This document shows positions 3,825-23,315 of a stretch of DNA of 64,000 bases, piece after piece; positions within the stretch are counted from its first letter, which is position 1; each line of letters opens with the position of its first letter. Source of the DNA: a virus; IMG/VR virus record IMGVR_UViG_3300021964_000018, positions 1 through 64,000 of that record; one strand, 5' to 3'. Under the pieces are notes generated by a model. That model did not search any database. It saw nothing but the letters and a program-made list of their open reading frames with translations, and was not told the origin of the DNA. The translations under genes and the position numbers were made by a program.

Positions 3825-4427
3825 ATGACTAAGTTAAACAGATCAGCACTTAAACAACTGATTGTTAAAGAAATGAAAAAAATAATGGATGAAGAAATAA
3901 TTTTTTCAAAAAATGCAGCATTAAATAGAGGAATGTTAGGCAGGCATGACGATCCAAGTCGTCAAGCTATGTATACATCATGTTCAGAATGTGGAAGCAA
4001 AATGTATGAAGGTGAGTCTGTATGTGAACAATGTGGTTCAATGTATGAAGCCGAGTTAAATGAAGGTGATTGCGGTTGTGGAACATGTTCAACATGCGCG
4101 CCGAATAATGCAGACCTAGACTATAATTTTATCCCAGATCACATGCAACATGATCTATTGAACCAATTTCCACAAATGAAGAATATTGAAGTTGAAGTTG
4201 AATATGATGACGATGTCAAGATAGGTAATCATAAAATTTTTAAAGGGTCATACATGGCAAAAAGTCATCTTTATAAAGTACACAAATATGCAGAAAAGCT
4301 TTATCATATGATACCTGATGGGCACAATCTTGAAGATTGGATGAGAACAAAATTAGCACAAATTGCTGATGATATTGGTGAAGTTTATCATGCATTAGAT
4401 CATGACATATTTGAAGGTGATGTATAA
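3825..4427 (+). CDS. Zinc-ribbon protein with the shared N-terminal module
   Basis: A 200-residue protein of unknown function. It begins with the basic amphipathic segment seen on many proteins here (K-L-N-R-x2-L-K-x-L-I-x-K-E). Next comes a probable zinc ribbon, CSECGSKMYEG followed by CEQCGS, and then a second Cys cluster, CGCGTCSTC, around residue 85. The C-terminal 90 residues are acidic and probably helical, with no recognised motif. A good GGAGA Shine-Dalgarno precedes the ATG. It ends two bases before the preferred start of the PAP2-Fic gene. The N-terminal module may be a head-targeting tag, but the (L/I)-x-E site is only approximate here (V-K-E). Confidence 0.7.
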   Translation: MTKLNRSALKQLIVKEMKKIMDEEIIFSKNAALNRGMLGRHDDPSRQAMYTSCSECGSKMYEGESVCEQCGSMYEAELNEGDCGCGTCSTCAPNNADLDYNFIPDHMQHDLLNQFPQMKNIEVEVEYDDDVKIGNHKIFKGSYMAKSHLYKVHKYAEKLYHMIPDGHNLEDWMRTKLAQIADDIGEVYHALDHDIFEGDV

Positions 4428-4428
4428 C

Positions 4429-5721
4429 ATGTTATCTTTGACGTCTCTTTTTAAAGAAACAAAAGAAACGCTGACTGAAGAACAAAAAAAGCACAGGGGT
4501 AGAGCTAACAAGTATATAAAGGATACGTCAGTTTTACCTGAACTTAAATGTCCTGAGGTGGGTAGTATTATTCATGATAGAGACGTCGAGATGATTAAAC
4601 ATTATTTTTATAACAAGTCTCTCTCTGATGATTTTTTAGAGGCAGCTCATGATTCTTGTAAGAAAGTTTTTAAAAAGTTTTGCAAACAAAATAATTATAA
4701 GATCAACTGGGAATTAATAGAAGACGGTCTTAAAGATTCCCATGCTATTATTTTTTCTCTTAAAAATAAGTTTAAAAGACCTAGACCTAAAGAATTATTA
4801 AAAATTGAAGATCCTGAATTTGACAATATTGTTGATATGGATTCTTATTCTTTTCCAAGCGGACACACAACAACAGCATTTTTTATAGCAACAGTATTAT
4901 CTGATGTTTTACCTGAAGAAAAAAATCATTTCAAAACAATGGCAGAATTAATAGGTCAATCTAGGATTGAAAATTGTGTCCATTATCCGACTGACGTCAT
5001 ACACGGTCAATTGTTAGGTGAATTATTAGGTCAGCTATTTTTAAATGAAATTAGTAATAAAAAACATGATATAACTGAAATTAAGCTTAAAAGAAAAGAT
5101 GAAAAAGTTTTATCACAAAAATTAAGAGAAAAAGCGTCAGAATTATATGATGAAAACTTTATCGAAAATTATTGTCATGACATGGCAGAATTTATTCAAA
5201 TCTCTTGTAAAATTGAGCAAATAGATTTGCCTTATAATAAATGTTATGAGGCATGTCATGATTTTATAAGCGGATATCCTTTAAAAGATATCGATAATGA
5301 TCACATCAGATCACATTTACAAATGATGTGCATGGCAAACAAATTAGATGATTTAGATAGCGTATTTTCAATTATTAATCTTCATAAACAACTTGATGAT
5401 AAAATTGTTGACAAAGGAAAACCTGGAATGCTGAGGTATTTTAATCGTGCCTCATCGTATGGAAATGAATATAGCTATCCTAATAATATTTTAGTCGATA
5501 TTCAGAAACTAAAAAAGATTGATAATCCTTATATTAAACATATAGTATATGAATGGATTCATCCATTTTGTGATGGAAATGGAAGGTCTGGTCGAATCAA
5601 GTTATTATTTGATTTAGGAATAGACTTTAGAGCAGTTAATCATTTTTGCGGCAAGGATTATTTAAATATCATACAAAAATTTGTTGACAAATATGAAACA
5701 ATTGATAATGTTTTAAATTAG
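4429..5721 (+). CDS. PAP2-superfamily phosphatase fused to a Fic domain
   Basis: I start at ATG 4429 because GAAGGTGA lies about ten bases upstream; an in-frame ATG at 4402 would overlap the previous gene. Numbering is for the 430-residue form. All three PAP2 motifs are intact: K-x6-RP (K112 to P120), PSGH (143-146) and S-R-x5-H-x3-D (S178 to D189). No transmembrane helices flank them, so this is a soluble PAP2 domain. The C-terminus carries HPFCDGNGRSGR at 378-389, matching the catalytic motif HPFx(D/E)GNGRxxR of AMP-transferring Fic enzymes rather than the kinase-type Doc variant. About 100 helical residues link them. A phosphohydrolase joined to a nucleotide-transferring domain suggests modification of a host target. 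The substrate is unknown. I see no obvious inhibitory (S/T)xxxE(G/N) helix. Confidence 0.85.
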   Translation: MLSLTSLFKETKETLTEEQKKHRGRANKYIKDTSVLPELKCPEVGSIIHDRDVEMIKHYFYNKSLSDDFLEAAHDSCKKVFKKFCKQNNYKINWELIEDGLKDSHAIIFSLKNKFKRPRPKELLKIEDPEFDNIVDMDSYSFPSGHTTTAFFIATVLSDVLPEEKNHFKTMAELIGQSRIENCVHYPTDVIHGQLLGELLGQLFLNEISNKKHDITEIKLKRKDEKVLSQKLREKASELYDENFIENYCHDMAEFIQISCKIEQIDLPYNKCYEACHDFISGYPLKDIDNDHIRSHLQMMCMANKLDDLDSVFSIINLHKQLDDKIVDKGKPGMLRYFNRASSYGNEYSYPNNILVDIQKLKKIDNPYIKHIVYEWIHPFCDGNGRSGRIKLLFDLGIDFRAVNHFCGKDYLNIIQKFVDKYETIDNVLN

Positions 5722-14594: not shown

Positions 14595-15194
14595 ATGCAA
14601 TTACTCAGAGAATGGTGTGCTTTTAACATTACCAAAGAAATGATCAACGAGTCCAGAGATCGAAATGGTGGAAAGTTAATACTAAAAGGTCCGATCCAAA
14701 AGTCAAATACTCTTAATCAAAATGGAAGAATATATCCTAAAAACATTTTAGAAAGAGAGATTATGAATTATCAAAAGCTAATTCAAGAAAATAGAGCAAT
14801 GGGTGAATGTGATCATCCAGATTCTTCTGTTGTTGAGCTTAAAAATGTTTCTCACGTTGTGAAGGAAGCCTATATGCAAGGTGATATAGTTTATGGAGCA
14901 ATAGAGATATTAGATACACCATCAGGTAAAATTATTCAATCATTAATTGAAAGTGGTGTGACGCTAGGAATATCTTCTCGTGGAGTAGGATCAACACAAA
15001 AACAAGGAAATACACAAATCGTCCAAGATGATTTTCAATTAATTTGTTTTGATATGGTATCAGAACCTTCTACGCCAGGTGCTTTTGTTATGAAAGAAGG
15101 TAAAGAAATTTCTAAAAAAGAGCTTAATAAATTCTTTAACAAAACAGACAGAATTGATAGAATTTTTAATGATATTATTCGGTGGGATAAATGA
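14595..15194 (+). CDS. Prohead maturation protease (gp21-like, peptidase S77)
   Basis: A 199-residue serine protease between portal and scaffold. The expected catalytic His is H74 in GECDHPDSS and the nucleophile is in GISSRG (S127 or S128), the arrangement of T4 gp21. After assembly it degrades the scaffold and trims the capsid protein and internal proteins after (L/I)-x-E motifs. That specificity matters here because such motifs occur in the capsid protein and in the N-terminal module of many small proteins. The N-terminus (LLREW) itself holds a candidate self-cleavage site. The stop overlaps the next start. Confidence 0.88.
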   Translation: MQLLREWCAFNITKEMINESRDRNGGKLILKGPIQKSNTLNQNGRIYPKNILEREIMNYQKLIQENRAMGECDHPDSSVVELKNVSHVVKEAYMQGDIVYGAIEILDTPSGKIIQSLIESGVTLGISSRGVGSTQKQGNTQIVQDDFQLICFDMVSEPSTPGAFVMKEGKEISKKELNKFFNKTDRIDRIFNDIIRWDK

Positions 15195-17140: not shown

Positions 17141-17168
17141 AAATTAAATTTTGCACGAGGAACAATAT

Positions 17169-18632
17169 ATGTCAAAATTATTTGAAGAAGCTTTAGCAGA
17201 CGCCAAAAGATTAAAGGAAGTCGCTGAAGAAAATGCAAAGAAAGCAATTTTAGAATCGATTACACCTAAAATTAAAAGTTTTATTGATCAGCAGATCATT
17301 GAACAAACTGAGCCTGAAATTGAAGAGGTTGAAGCTGAAGAGGAAGAAGAGGCAAACGAATATGCTAATTTGGACGAAGATTCAATTACATCTTTAATGG
17401 AAATGTTAGGTGTCAAAAAGAATATTGCAGAATCTAATATTAAATCTGCAGTTAATAAAATGAGTCATCAACAACGTAAAAACCTTAGTGAGGCAGCAAA
17501 AAAAGCTAACTCTGATGATAAATTGACACGTAATGAAATAAATAATCAATATAGAAATTTACTTGAGGAGATATCAATGAATAAAGAACGTTATTACGAA
17601 GTTGACTTAAAGGCACTTCGTGAAGCTGTTGAAAAAGAAGCAGATGACATTGCTGCTAAAGAAGAATTAAAACACGAAATGAGTGATCTTTACGAAGAGG
17701 AAGAAGGATCCCATGAAGAAGGTTATGGTCTTGATGAAGAAGAAATCGACAAAGAAGCCATGGATCATCTTATAAATGAAATCAAGCTTGCTCTTGACTT
17801 AGGCGAAGATATCGAAGAAGATATGATTCCTGAGGAACTTAGAGGAATGATCATAGATGACGAAGATGAATCTGACGAAGAACTTGACATGGAAGATTCT
17901 GAAGAAGAGAGTGAAGAAGAAGGAGAGGAGGGCATTGAAGACATGCTTCCACCCCTTGAAGGCGAAGAAGGTGAAGATGCTGAGCCTGCACCTCTTGAAG
18001 AAGTTTTTGAAGTAGATCCTAATATGCTTCGTCAAGAATTAAGAAATATTAGAAATATGTTAAGTGAAGGAAAAGTTGATCATCATTTTGGTGGAAAAGG
18101 TGAATCTAATGCAGGTCATGCTAATGCATTTGGTGGAAAAGGTGCTAAAAAACTTGGACATCAAAAATCATTTGGTGGCGGAGCTCCTGGAAAGGATGTA
18201 TTTGTTAATCCACCCGCTTCACTTAAGAAATTAAACGAAAATATTCGCAATCTGAGACGTCAAAATCGAGCTCAGCAAGAGAAACTGAATAAATACAGAG
18301 GTGCAGTTCAAACACTTCGTGAGCAGTTGGAAGATCTCAACCTATTTAATGCAAAGTTGCTCTACGTAAATAAACTTTTACAGAACAATACTTTGTCTGA
18401 ATCTCAAAAGAAATCAGTTATCAAAGCATTGGACGAAGCAAAAAGTTTGAGTGAAACTAAGTCATTATACACATCACTTACTGAATCTCTATCAGTTTCA
18501 GCATCAAAGAAAACTTTGAGTGAATCAACTAGATTCGGTAGTTCTTCAAGAACAACAACTTCAGCTTCTACACATTCAGATAAAACCGTTGGTGAGTCTG
18601 ATCGTTGGGCAAAGTTGGCTGGTCTTAAATAA
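17169..18632 (+). CDS. Prohead core scaffold (gp22-like)
   Basis: A 487-residue, highly acidic, mainly helical protein directly before the capsid gene, the gp22 position. I use ATG 17169 with GAGGAA upstream; a TTG at 17151 is in frame but less likely. Residues 50-290 contain long Glu/Asp runs. A short repeat block around 305-345 has several FGGKG-type units (HHFGGKG, NAFGGKG, KSFGGG). A Gln- and Leu-rich coiled coil follows. The C-terminus has a Ser/Thr stretch and ends DRWAKLAGLK. It should form the prohead core and be digested by the S77 protease. It is nearly twice the length of T4 gp22. Confidence 0.75.
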   Translation: MSKLFEEALADAKRLKEVAEENAKKAILESITPKIKSFIDQQIIEQTEPEIEEVEAEEEEEANEYANLDEDSITSLMEMLGVKKNIAESNIKSAVNKMSHQQRKNLSEAAKKANSDDKLTRNEINNQYRNLLEEISMNKERYYEVDLKALREAVEKEADDIAAKEELKHEMSDLYEEEEGSHEEGYGLDEEEIDKEAMDHLINEIKLALDLGEDIEEDMIPEELRGMIIDDEDESDEELDMEDSEEESEEEGEEGIEDMLPPLEGEEGEDAEPAPLEEVFEVDPNMLRQELRNIRNMLSEGKVDHHFGGKGESNAGHANAFGGKGAKKLGHQKSFGGGAPGKDVFVNPPASLKKLNENIRNLRRQNRAQQEKLNKYRGAVQTLREQLEDLNLFNAKLLYVNKLLQNNTLSESQKKSVIKALDEAKSLSETKSLYTSLTESLSVSASKKTLSESTRFGSSSRTTTSASTHSDKTVGESDRWAKLAGLK

Positions 18633-18673: not shown

Positions 18674-20590
18674 ATGTCTAGATCATTTAGTTTAAATCAA
18701 CTGACAGAAGGAATTAGAGAACGCCACTTAGGCGCTGATTCTTCTCGTCTTGTGTCCAAGTGGACACGTACAGGTCTTCTTCGAGGACTTCAAGAAAACA
18801 ACCGCGAAAACATGGCTCGCATGCTTGAAAACCAAGCGTCTCAGCTCCTTCGCGAAGCAAACACTTTAGGTAGCGGTGGATCTGCTGGAAACATTGATGG
18901 TTTTACCAATATCGCTTTTCCAATCGTTCGTCGAGTATTCGGTGGATTGGTAGCAAACGAATTAGTTTCTATTCAACCTATGTCTTTACCTTCCGGACTT
19001 CTTTTCTATCTTGATTATTCATATGGAGCAGATGTTGGTGGTGATGGAACTGGTGATGGAAACACAGATGCTACTTATGCTTCAACTTACAATAGAGGTG
19101 ATTCTCTTTATGGAAATCCTGGTGGTTCTAGTATCCGTACTGGTGCATCTGCAGTTGGTGGTCAATATGATCTTGCAGGTTCAGGATATTCAAAAGTTCA
19201 CGGAACTTATAAATTGAATGAAGGTTTGGCTCATATTGGTAAATTTGGAACCGGTGCTTCTCAATCAGGTGCAAATGGTGTAGCTGGTGTAGAAGGTGCT
19301 GACGGTAAATTACTACAATTTGACCCACAGATCATCAAAAGAATTAATGATGGCGACGCAGAATATGCATTCTTGGTTGCTTCAGCTTCAGTTCTTGTTG
19401 AAGATGCTGCAACTGGACGTTCATTAGACCCAACACAAGTTAAGCAAATTGCTTTATTTAGTGCTCTTGGCACTACAAATGGATTTACAGTACCTCCTGC
19501 TACTGTTCAAGGTGGAAGCAATGTATTGAACGTTCGTCGCCTTAATCAGTTAGGTACTATGGCAGGTGCACAGGACGCAATTACATTCACTCCTGATCCT
19601 CTTAAAGCACTTACTGATCTTGACGCAGGTATTCTTTTTGTAATGGAACTTGCTGATGGCGCAACTCCTGACGCGGATGCCGCTGGATTGGCAGCTGTAA
19701 CTAATCTTACTGCTTCTTTCCCAGTTGCTGATTCAGTATCAGCTGAAGGTGGAACTGGTGGAACTCTTGTTATTCCAAGCTTTGAGTCAGATTTTGCAGC
19801 TTCTCCAAGCCCAGTTATTCCTGAGATTGATATTAAGATTGAGTCTATCGCGGTAACAGCGACCACACGTAAGTTAAGAGCTCGTTGGTCTCCAGAACTT
19901 GCGCAAGATCTTAATGCTTATCACTCAATGGATGCTGAAGTTGAATTGACTCAGATTCTTTCTGAGCAGATTGCACTTGAGATCGATCGTGAGATTCTTA
20001 ATGATCTTCTTACAGAAGCAAAAGCAGCTAACTACTACTGGTCACGTGCTCCTGGTAAATTCGTTAAGAAGGATACTGGTGTCGTTGCATCTAGCACTAT
20101 TGGACCTAATTTCACGGGTACAGTTCGCGAATGGTACGAAACTCTTGTTGAAACCATTATCGACGTTGCTAACGAAATTCACAGAAAGACTCTTCGTGGA
20201 GCAGCTAACTTTATCGTGGTTTCACCTGAAGTAGCTACTATCTTCGAAGCTTCAGTTCTTTACAAGCCTTCTATCAAGATTGATGGACAAGGACAAGTTG
20301 GAACTCCTTTCTCTATCGGTGCAGAAGCTATTGGATCTCTTTCAAATCGCTTTACGGTTTACAAAGATCCTTACTTCCCACGCAACAAGATCCTTGTAGG
20401 ATACAAAGGTGGATCATATCTTGAGTCTGGATACGTCTATGCTCCTTATGTACCACTCATCGTTACTCCTACAATCTTCGCTCCTGAAGATTTCACACCA
20501 AGAAAAGGTGTAATGACTCGTTACGGTAAGAAAATGGTACGTGCCGATTTCTACGGAACAGTTACATGCCTTGACATGGACGTGATCTAA
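18674..20590 (+). CDS. Major capsid protein (gp23-like)
   Basis: A 638-residue HK97-fold capsid protein, assigned by position, length and strong expression signals. A helical propeptide ends in LLRE61 followed by A62-NTLGSGG, very like the T4 gp23 cleavage site FLAE followed by Ala, so processing after E61 is predicted. The middle (about 110-380) holds Gly-, Ser- and Asp-rich insertions not needed for the T4 fold. The C-terminal half (KIESIAVTATTRKLRARWSP onward) matches the conserved gp23 core. Codons are richer in C and G at third positions than in the neighbours, as expected for a very highly expressed gene. GGAGA precedes the ATG and a strong terminator follows. Confidence 0.93.
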   Translation: MSRSFSLNQLTEGIRERHLGADSSRLVSKWTRTGLLRGLQENNRENMARMLENQASQLLREANTLGSGGSAGNIDGFTNIAFPIVRRVFGGLVANELVSIQPMSLPSGLLFYLDYSYGADVGGDGTGDGNTDATYASTYNRGDSLYGNPGGSSIRTGASAVGGQYDLAGSGYSKVHGTYKLNEGLAHIGKFGTGASQSGANGVAGVEGADGKLLQFDPQIIKRINDGDAEYAFLVASASVLVEDAATGRSLDPTQVKQIALFSALGTTNGFTVPPATVQGGSNVLNVRRLNQLGTMAGAQDAITFTPDPLKALTDLDAGILFVMELADGATPDADAAGLAAVTNLTASFPVADSVSAEGGTGGTLVIPSFESDFAASPSPVIPEIDIKIESIAVTATTRKLRARWSPELAQDLNAYHSMDAEVELTQILSEQIALEIDREILNDLLTEAKAANYYWSRAPGKFVKKDTGVVASSTIGPNFTGTVREWYETLVETIIDVANEIHRKTLRGAANFIVVSPEVATIFEASVLYKPSIKIDGQGQVGTPFSIGAEAIGSLSNRFTVYKDPYFPRNKILVGYKGGSYLESGYVYAPYVPLIVTPTIFAPEDFTPRKGVMTRYGKKMVRADFYGTVTCLDMDVI

Positions 20591-22051: not shown

Positions 22052-22386
22052 GAAAAATCACGCCATGCATGTGGTTTTCTTGTTTTAAGATAACCTAAAT
22101 TTTTTTGATGCGTATATGCTTCTTTCTCAAATGGAATGGCATAATACGCATCAGCTCCGTTCAAACCTTTAAATCTTGCTTTAAGCCAATACCATATATA
22201 AAGAAGGTAAAAACCAACCACCCAGAGTTCTCTCTGTTGAACGAGGTGAATCTTTTCGTGGTTATATATAGTAATATCAAGCTGTTCTTTTGCAATAATA
22301 AACGGGTATAACGTAATCGCATAAACATCAATAAAAAGGCTCATTGCTTTGCAAAAACGTGGGCTAATAATTACTTTAGGTTTCAT
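22048..22386 (-). CDS. Small HEKIH metallopeptidase-like protein
   Basis: A 112-residue minus-strand protein with H43-E-K-I-H47, a downstream acidic FEKEAY (E87/E89) and a hydrophobic aromatic segment between them (WVVGFYLLYIWYWL). This is the layout of small zinc-peptidase-like, membrane-associated proteins found in bacteria and phages. Activity is not established. Its ATG overlaps the stop of the upstream exonuclease (TAATG), so the two form one operon, the only one on this strand in the window. Confidence 0.6.
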   Translation of the reverse strand: MKPKVIISPRFCKAMSLFIDVYAITLYPFIIAKEQLDITIYNHEKIHLVQQRELWVVGFYLLYIWYWLKARFKGLNGADAYYAIPFEKEAYTHQKNLGYLKTRKPHAWRDFS

Positions 22387-23315
22387 TACATTCTCCTTTT
22401 ATATGGGTATTTAGGTCTAAGTGTATCAACCGCAAATCGACCACCCCTATTTGGGTCTTGAAGATATTGCAATGTTTTATAAAGGACTTCCATTGTCATT
22501 CCAATATCAGCAGTTGCTTCATGCCATGACTCATTATCAATTTCAAATGCTGTCGCCATCATACCAAGCCGGCTAGCAAGATAAGGTTTCCCTTTATAAG
22601 ATAGTGCCGTAATGCTGTCAATGATGTGTTTATCTTCAGCATTCATTTCAGCTTCATTTTTTTGTACATATTGCAGTACAGCTTTTAGATAATTATCAAT
22701 AATTGCAATTGAATCCATCACAGCAATATCTGGTGCGTTTAAACCACCTCTTTGATAAAAAAGATTTGTCATTTTTGCATCAAATGGAGAATTGTGGGCC
22801 CAAAAGACCAGCTTACCTGTTGGGCTGGCAGTTTTTTGTGCTTGTATATATTGATTAAACATTTCAGCACCATCTGCTTGATTAACGCGCGGTACATCTT
22901 CTCCGCCATAATAATCATTCATGTCTAAAAGACCTGGAATCGAGTATTTAGGATCGCCTTTATAAGTTCCTGCGTCTAGCTGTGCTTGTTGATTTTTTAT
23001 TTCAGCTTCTGTGTCTGGTGTTAAGACTATTTTAACATTGAACATTCCGTCGTTTACAGGAGAAGGTATTTGGTCGAGATTATTTGTTTTGTATGCTATG
23101 GCTGCCAGTTGAGTTATTTGAACAAAATTTGGAACTGATCCGTCTTTATTTGGTAGACCTGTTGTTTCTGTGTCGAAGAAAACCCAGTTATGTTGTGCAA
23201 GTTCTTTAAGCTTTTTAATCATTTCAGAGAACTGAGGAGGATAAAAACTAGGATCGACTGATCTTTCGTTTAGGAATTTGCGCCATTCTGTCAAGATTTG
23301 TTTCATGTTATTCAT
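22386..23315 (-). CDS. DnaQ-like 3'-5' exonuclease (DEDD superfamily)
   Basis: A 309-residue minus-strand exonuclease. Motif I is FFDTETTGLP (D48, E50), motif II lies around AHNSPFDAKM, and motif III is HEATADIG, giving the DEDDh set used for two-metal 3'-5' hydrolysis. The N-terminus (MKQILTEWRKFLNE) is an amphipathic helix with LTE and LNE sites, similar in spirit to the module on plus-strand genes. It could be a proofreading subunit for the mini polymerase at 50755, which lacks an exonuclease domain, or a DNA- or RNA-degrading enzyme. AAGGAG lies before the first ATG. The promoter is shared with the divergent gene at 23393. Confidence 0.85.
   Translation of the reverse strand: MNNMKQILTEWRKFLNERSVDPSFYPPQFSEMIKKLKELAQHNWVFFDTETTGLPNKDGSVPNFVQITQLAAIAYKTNNLDQIPSPVNDGMFNVKIVLTPDTEAEIKNQQAQLDAGTYKGDPKYSIPGLLDMNDYYGGEDVPRVNQADGAEMFNQYIQAQKTASPTGKLVFWAHNSPFDAKMTNLFYQRGGLNAPDIAVMDSIAIIDNYLKAVLQYVQKNEAEMNAEDKHIIDSITALSYKGKPYLASRLGMMATAFEIDNESWHEATADIGMTMEVLYKTLQYLQDPNRGGRFAVDTLRPKYPYKRRM

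Follow-up and report, generated by a model that had tools for sequence, protein, structure and literature searches.

We investigated the gene at positions 4429 to 5721 of a 64,000-nucleotide stretch of viral DNA (positions 1 to 64,000 of IMG/VR record IMGVR_UViG_3300021964_000018; hereafter, the window) and found that it encodes one protein of 430 amino acids carrying both a complete PAP2 phosphatase signature and a complete Fic motif. A soluble phosphatase and a Fic domain of the type that transfers adenosine monophosphate (AMP) had been predicted in a single phage protein, here called PAP2-Fic, in an initial annotation, and the motifs, Pfam matches and fold matches confirmed this architecture. 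We see an even chance that PAP2-Fic is a two-enzyme effector packaged in the phage head, injected and used to modify the host, like Alt of phage T4 but by AMP transfer. The features of the gene and its two halves are as follows:

4429–5721, plus strand: PAP2-Fic gene, 430 amino acids and stop (open reading frame (ORF), Pfam matches and about 17 distinct homologues of the same architecture)
4413–4419, plus strand: Shine-Dalgarno-like GAAGGTG, read in the sequence
4534–5067, plus strand: PAP2 domain, about residues 36–213 (PF01569, 1.3e-16; Foldseek 7f17 and PhoN, probability 1.0)
4762–4788, plus strand: PAP2 motif 1, K112-x6-R119-P120, invariant in the family alignment
4855–4866, plus strand: PAP2 motif 2, PSGH at residues 143–146, invariant in the family alignment
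4960–4995, plus strand: PAP2 motif 3, S178-R179-x5-H185-x3-D189, with R, H and D invariant and S or T at 178
5158–5694, plus strand: Fic domain and N-terminal helix, about residues 244–422 (PF02661, 4e-6; Foldseek 4rgl, 8cil and 3cuc)
5203–5217, plus strand: class II-type inhibitory motif S259-x-x-I262-E263, conserved among catalytically intact members of the Fic clade
5425–5436, plus strand: G333-x-x-R336 in the Fic flap region, invariant in 14 fusions
5560–5595, plus strand: Fic catalytic motif HPFCDGNGRSGR, residues 378–389 (H378-PFCDGNGRSG-R389), intact

The N-terminus of the protein is secure because GAAGGTG lies upstream of 4429 and, in two relatives (L024 and L302), a stop codon stands immediately 5' of the homologous ATG; an alternative in-frame ATG at 4402 is not conserved. 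The PAP2 half contains the signature K-x6-RP-(x12-54)-PSGH-(x31-54)-SR-x5-H-x3-D with spacings of 22 and 31, and the Fic half contains the family motif HPFx[DE]GNGRxxR, which starts 188 residues after D189, close to the distance of about 190 given earlier for the same frame and motifs. In a Pfam scan, only PAP2 (61 bits; cut-off 27.2) and Fic (28 bits; cut-off 24) exceeded the cut-offs, and no ADP-ribosyltransferase domain was detected. An AlphaFold2 model built on a 69-row alignment of fusions, Fic-only relatives, cellular PAP2 proteins and other phage Fic proteins reached a mean predicted local distance difference test (pLDDT) score of 94.1 and a predicted template modelling (pTM) score of 0.87, with uncertainty mainly at the N-terminal residues, and superseded a poor three-row model (pLDDT 46). 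In Foldseek searches of the PDB, the PAP2 half matched the class A acid phosphatases 7f17, PhoN and PhoC, and the Fic half matched 4rgl, 8cil and 3cuc, all with probability 1.0, so the models lent no support to the earlier reservation that neither active site might be correctly placed.

The search for PAP2-Fic architectures proposed in the initial annotation yielded about 17 other distinct IMG/VR phage contigs with the same fusion, mostly 30–45% identical to the window protein. In relatives with enough context, the position of the fusion gene is conserved, in the order structural genes, RuvC, primase, leader-bearing protein, PAP2-Fic, (ATPase)/SbcCD, terminase and portal. Furthermore, both halves are under purifying selection, with ratios of nonsynonymous to synonymous substitution rates (dN/dS) of 0.05–0.19 in pairs with unsaturated dS. 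Because about 17 distinct relatives are intact, their gene position is conserved and both halves are constrained, the fusion is not a frame error; a chimera or two genes joined by sequencing error, the other reservation voiced earlier, was likewise ruled out by intact fusions from many metagenomes. A bacterial or prophage origin was also rejected: of 312 cellular loci, the best 80 align with the PAP2 part, and in these 80 the two motifs never occur together in one ORF.

Among 50,697 phage records, we found neither a full-length match to PAP2-Fic nor a close match to its Fic clade, and a structure search of a viral library returned no full-length match. The literature searched, mainly open papers, held nothing on point for PAP2-Fic, phage AMPylation or virion Fic, and no description of the Fic-only, Fic-Nudix and LRV-Fic members of the clade. 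These results agree with the earlier statement that no phage enzyme with this pair had been described. In the phylogenetic tree, the fusions formed one clade (86/98) with the Fic-only, Fic-Nudix and LRV-Fic proteins outside it, and a lineage with a dead Fic site was nested within the fusion clade on a long branch. A single fusion event would be the simplest reading of this tree.

The PAP2 half shares with class A acid phosphatases (PhoN, PhoC and Pseudomonas aeruginosa 7f17) the signature with standard spacing and the soluble helical fold, but differs in being fused to Fic and in its identity of about 20–25%; by inspection, its N-terminus MLSLTSLFKETKETLTEEQKK has no long hydrophobic core, and no secretion signal is evident. 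A stand-alone phage PAP2 protein was also observed (L323:4833-5738), in which the C-terminal NNNNGWKWGDQGKCYTGPEGKKKA tail resembles an appended module. The Fic half resembles the class II adenylyltransferases FICD and SoFic in HPFxDGNGRxGR, the Fic fold and an N-terminal [ST]-x-x-x-E, but carries PAP2 N-terminally and lacks a TPR or winged-helix part. The motif [ST]259-x-x-I262-E263, which we take to occupy the place of the class II inhibitory motif of FICD, was kept as [ST]-x-x-I-E by every one of the 22 clade rows with an intact catalytic site; in 25 other phage Fic proteins, S-x-x-I-[ED] falls at the aligned position. Unlike in FICD and SoFic, the G or N that follows the glutamate in the class II form [ST]-x-x-x-E-[GN] is absent from the window protein (Q264) and most fusions; it is kept in L240, L241 and L243.

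Four fusions had lost the catalytic motif, which now reads APF..GN..ITN, together with the inhibitory motif, whereas their PAP2 residues and leader were retained (L315:5001, L318:5001, L320:4124 and L322:3710). Such joint loss would be expected if the role of the inhibitory motif is to restrain Fic catalysis. The dead Fic half is still constrained, with a dN/dS of 0.089 versus 0.086 for PAP2 (L318–L320). Conversely, the same Fic clade occurs in other architectures that share leader-like N-termini with the fusions but have another partner or none in place of PAP2: Fic alone (L240, L244 and L245), a Fic-Nudix fusion (L243:7938-8927; NUDIX, 1.7e-16) and a protein of about 990 amino acids with LRV repeats and a Fic domain (L241:6114-9083). 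The two such Fic domains compared were 30–38% identical to the window protein, and a separate PAP2 gene was sought in the partial records of the Fic-only and LRV-Fic phages and not found. Fic is thus found in proteins that lack PAP2, and PAP2 beside a Fic that is dead; the two activities are separable and resemble two cargoes sharing a delivery tag.

The candidate for this tag is the N-terminal leader, and a cognate prohead protease, which T4-type capsid-targeting cargo calls for, is encoded in the same genome:

4429–4458, plus strand: leader, residues 1–10, MLSLTSLFKE, proposed capsid-targeting sequence (conserved pattern, low pLDDT and likeness to the Alt leader)
14595–15194, plus strand: gp21-type prohead (head maturation) protease (phrog_207, 1.4e-52)

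The fusions conserve the leader M-x-S-[LI]-x-x-L-F-x-E (or L-F-E), with L or I at position 4, L7 and F8 in nearly all members and E at 10 or 9; from there to about residue 36 the sequence varies. In T4, the ten N-terminal residues of the internal protein IPIII are enough for packaging, positions 4 and 7 serving targeting and 8 and 10 processing (PMC9026906), and Alt starts with MELITELFDE, is cut after ITE-6 and is ejected (PMC5694885). The leader MRSIQELFDE shares 6 of 10 residues with that of Alt. When 2,116 viral ORFs were ranked by likeness to the Alt leader, PAP2-Fic took 15 of the top 48 places; only a handful of unrelated genes outscored the best fusions, and LRV-Fic stood at rank 20 and Fic-Nudix at rank 28. 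PAP2-Fic agrees with IPI–IPIII at capsid-targeting positions 4, 7, 8 and 10 (PMC9026906), but these are small, non-enzymatic proteins, whereas PAP2-Fic is a 430-residue two-enzyme fusion. With Alt it also shares a T4-like phage with a gp21-type protease and a nucleotide-transfer enzyme; unlike Alt, it has a Fic AMP-transfer domain and a phosphatase rather than an ADP-ribosyltransferase, and its packaging is predicted from the leader. PAP2-Fic may thus work like Alt, but is not an Alt homologue.

Leaders recur among the relatives. LRV-Fic (leader MLTLNNIFNE) sits between the prohead protease and the scaffold and capsid genes. The Fic-only and Fic-Nudix relatives carry leaders other than those of the fusions, and their neighbour genes share such leaders: Fic-only genes (L233/L244 and L245) lie within gene runs that share a second leader type, MKITRxxLRKIIxE, and the Fic-Nudix leader MKLILESWRKFVKEE resembles MNNMKQILTEWRKFLNE of an exonuclease-like gene in the window (22386–23315). 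The second leader type (approximately MK[LI][TN][RK]xxLRKLIxE) heads 20 of the 154 genes of the window's genome, whose products are otherwise unrelated; it was found at 4 of 691 internal methionines (shuffle mean, 3.3). This type may mark many head-packaged proteins. Its carriers start at 3825, 15191, 21578, 24299, 24664, 27014 and 28150 in the window, with others in L015 and L017 (about 82–128 kb of the record), and one carrier is a LysM-lysozyme.

Packaging would be the reading that explains most of the leader evidence. During head assembly, the first ten residues would draw PAP2-Fic into the scaffold core as a capsid-targeting sequence, the gp21-type protease would remove the leader, and the protein would be injected alongside the DNA in the manner of T4 Alt. 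In the host, the Fic domain would transfer AMP, or another nucleoside monophosphate, from a nucleotide to a hydroxyl on a host target, with the helix bearing S259-x-x-I-E263 holding it in check, and the PAP2 domain, with its soluble acid-phosphatase fold, would independently dephosphorylate a small phosphate ester such as a nucleotide. The examples of Alt and IPI would make host transcription or defence machinery the most likely class of target. More tentatively, at somewhat below an even chance, this T4-like clade would package and inject modular Fic effectors, each composed of a head-targeting leader and a Fic domain of the same clade with PAP2, Nudix, LRV or no partner.

Several points weigh against packaging and injection. 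The fusions are homologous, and their leader likeness to Alt therefore counts as one family. In some members, the predicted protease site (L-F-x-E or L-F-E) is not the one that best fits (L/I)-x-E, L260 has neither form, and the leader is shifted by one residue in L302 and L304. An amphipathic N-terminal helix could also bind something besides the head core. As the dead-Fic lineage shows, some phages can do without AMP transfer. A search for a virion proteome of Flavobacterium phage immuto, the nearest isolate, found none. Finally, the alignment behind the structure model was partly built from single-domain proteins, which helped to fold each half; the model is therefore not independent evidence of homology, whereas the family hidden Markov model scores are.

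The alternative that survives best, although we consider it rather unlikely, is a non-packaged takeover or counter-defence enzyme, produced during infection to modify host or defence proteins inside the cell, with PAP2 destroying a nucleotide signal or by-product and the N-terminal helix binding, instead of the head core, a partner such as the adjacent leader-bearing protein:

3825–4427, plus strand: 200-residue zinc-ribbon-like protein with leader MTKLNRSALKQLIVKE, adjoining PAP2-Fic; a leader-bearing gene stands here in every relative with that context

In most relatives, PAP2-Fic adjoins or overlaps the upstream gene (TAATG or similar), which would fit co-expression with a partner, and the gene lies between primase and SbcCD-type recombination genes. 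SoFic and other Fic proteins are among the PADLOC defence candidates, which brings Fic chemistry into phage–host conflict. However, the leader positions agree with T4 capsid targeting, and relatives of other architectures are also leader-bearing, one of them inside a head gene cluster. The earlier argument for early expression from the neighbouring primase carries little weight, given the conserved mixed neighbourhood from structural genes to portal; if the protein does act early, the N-terminal leader points to a different means, namely head packaging and injection.

It is improbable that PAP2 is the main activity and that Fic regulates or positions it, either by modifying PAP2-Fic itself or by acting as a binding platform. 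The persistence of PAP2 catalytic residues and leader where the Fic site is dead, and the continuing constraint on that dead half, are what such a role would predict, but about 17 lineages strictly preserve both the active site and the inhibitory motif of Fic, and the same Fic clade exists without PAP2. Least probable is coupled chemistry, in which PAP2 would either dispose of pyrophosphate or nucleotide arising in the Fic reaction or prepare its substrate. Class A acid phosphatases accept a broad range of phosphate esters, and another member of this Fic clade is joined to a Nudix phosphohydrolase, a recurrence of phosphate-cleaving partners that leaves room for a shared nucleotide-chemistry theme, but Fic-only and LRV-Fic proteins have no such partner and the dead-Fic lineage retains PAP2, so the data neither require the coupling suggested earlier nor support a strict dependence of either domain on the other.

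If PAP2-Fic is indeed packaged and injected, AMP-transferring enzymes delivered by phages would be a takeover chemistry additional to T4 Alt ADP-ribosylation, with a phosphatase as a second payload. Such enzymes would, to our knowledge, be the first protein-AMPylators that a phage injects, a counterpart of T4 Alt that uses different chemistry. Natural controls exist within the family, namely Fic proteins that lack PAP2, PAP2 proteins whose Fic is dead and a Fic whose partner is Nudix instead of PAP2. The leaders would also provide a sequence rule to predict which of the numerous uncharacterised proteins of these phages travel inside the head. New in the present analysis are the leader likeness to the T4 capsid-targeting signal, the class II-type motif, the swapped Fic partners and the dead-Fic sister lineage.

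The window belongs to a 141-kb virus contig with T4-type portal, terminase, protease and capsid genes, and its capsid protein and terminase have their closest counterparts in Flavobacterium phage immuto and Microcystis phage Mel-JY01. The T4 late-promoter octamer TATAAATA occurs at 4 sites in the window, versus 10.9 expected from shuffles, and does not mark the PAP2-Fic gene in the window scan; being rarer than expected, it hints that these phages may not use the T4-type late promoter. Downstream of the prohead protease lie two further head genes:

17151–18632, plus strand: probable head scaffold (gp22-like), assigned by composition and by position between the protease and capsid genes, with no PHROG match
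18674–20590, plus strand: major capsid protein (gp23-type; phrog_138, 8.1e-77)

In the gp23-type capsid protein, a possible QLLRE|A maturation site was discerned by eye.
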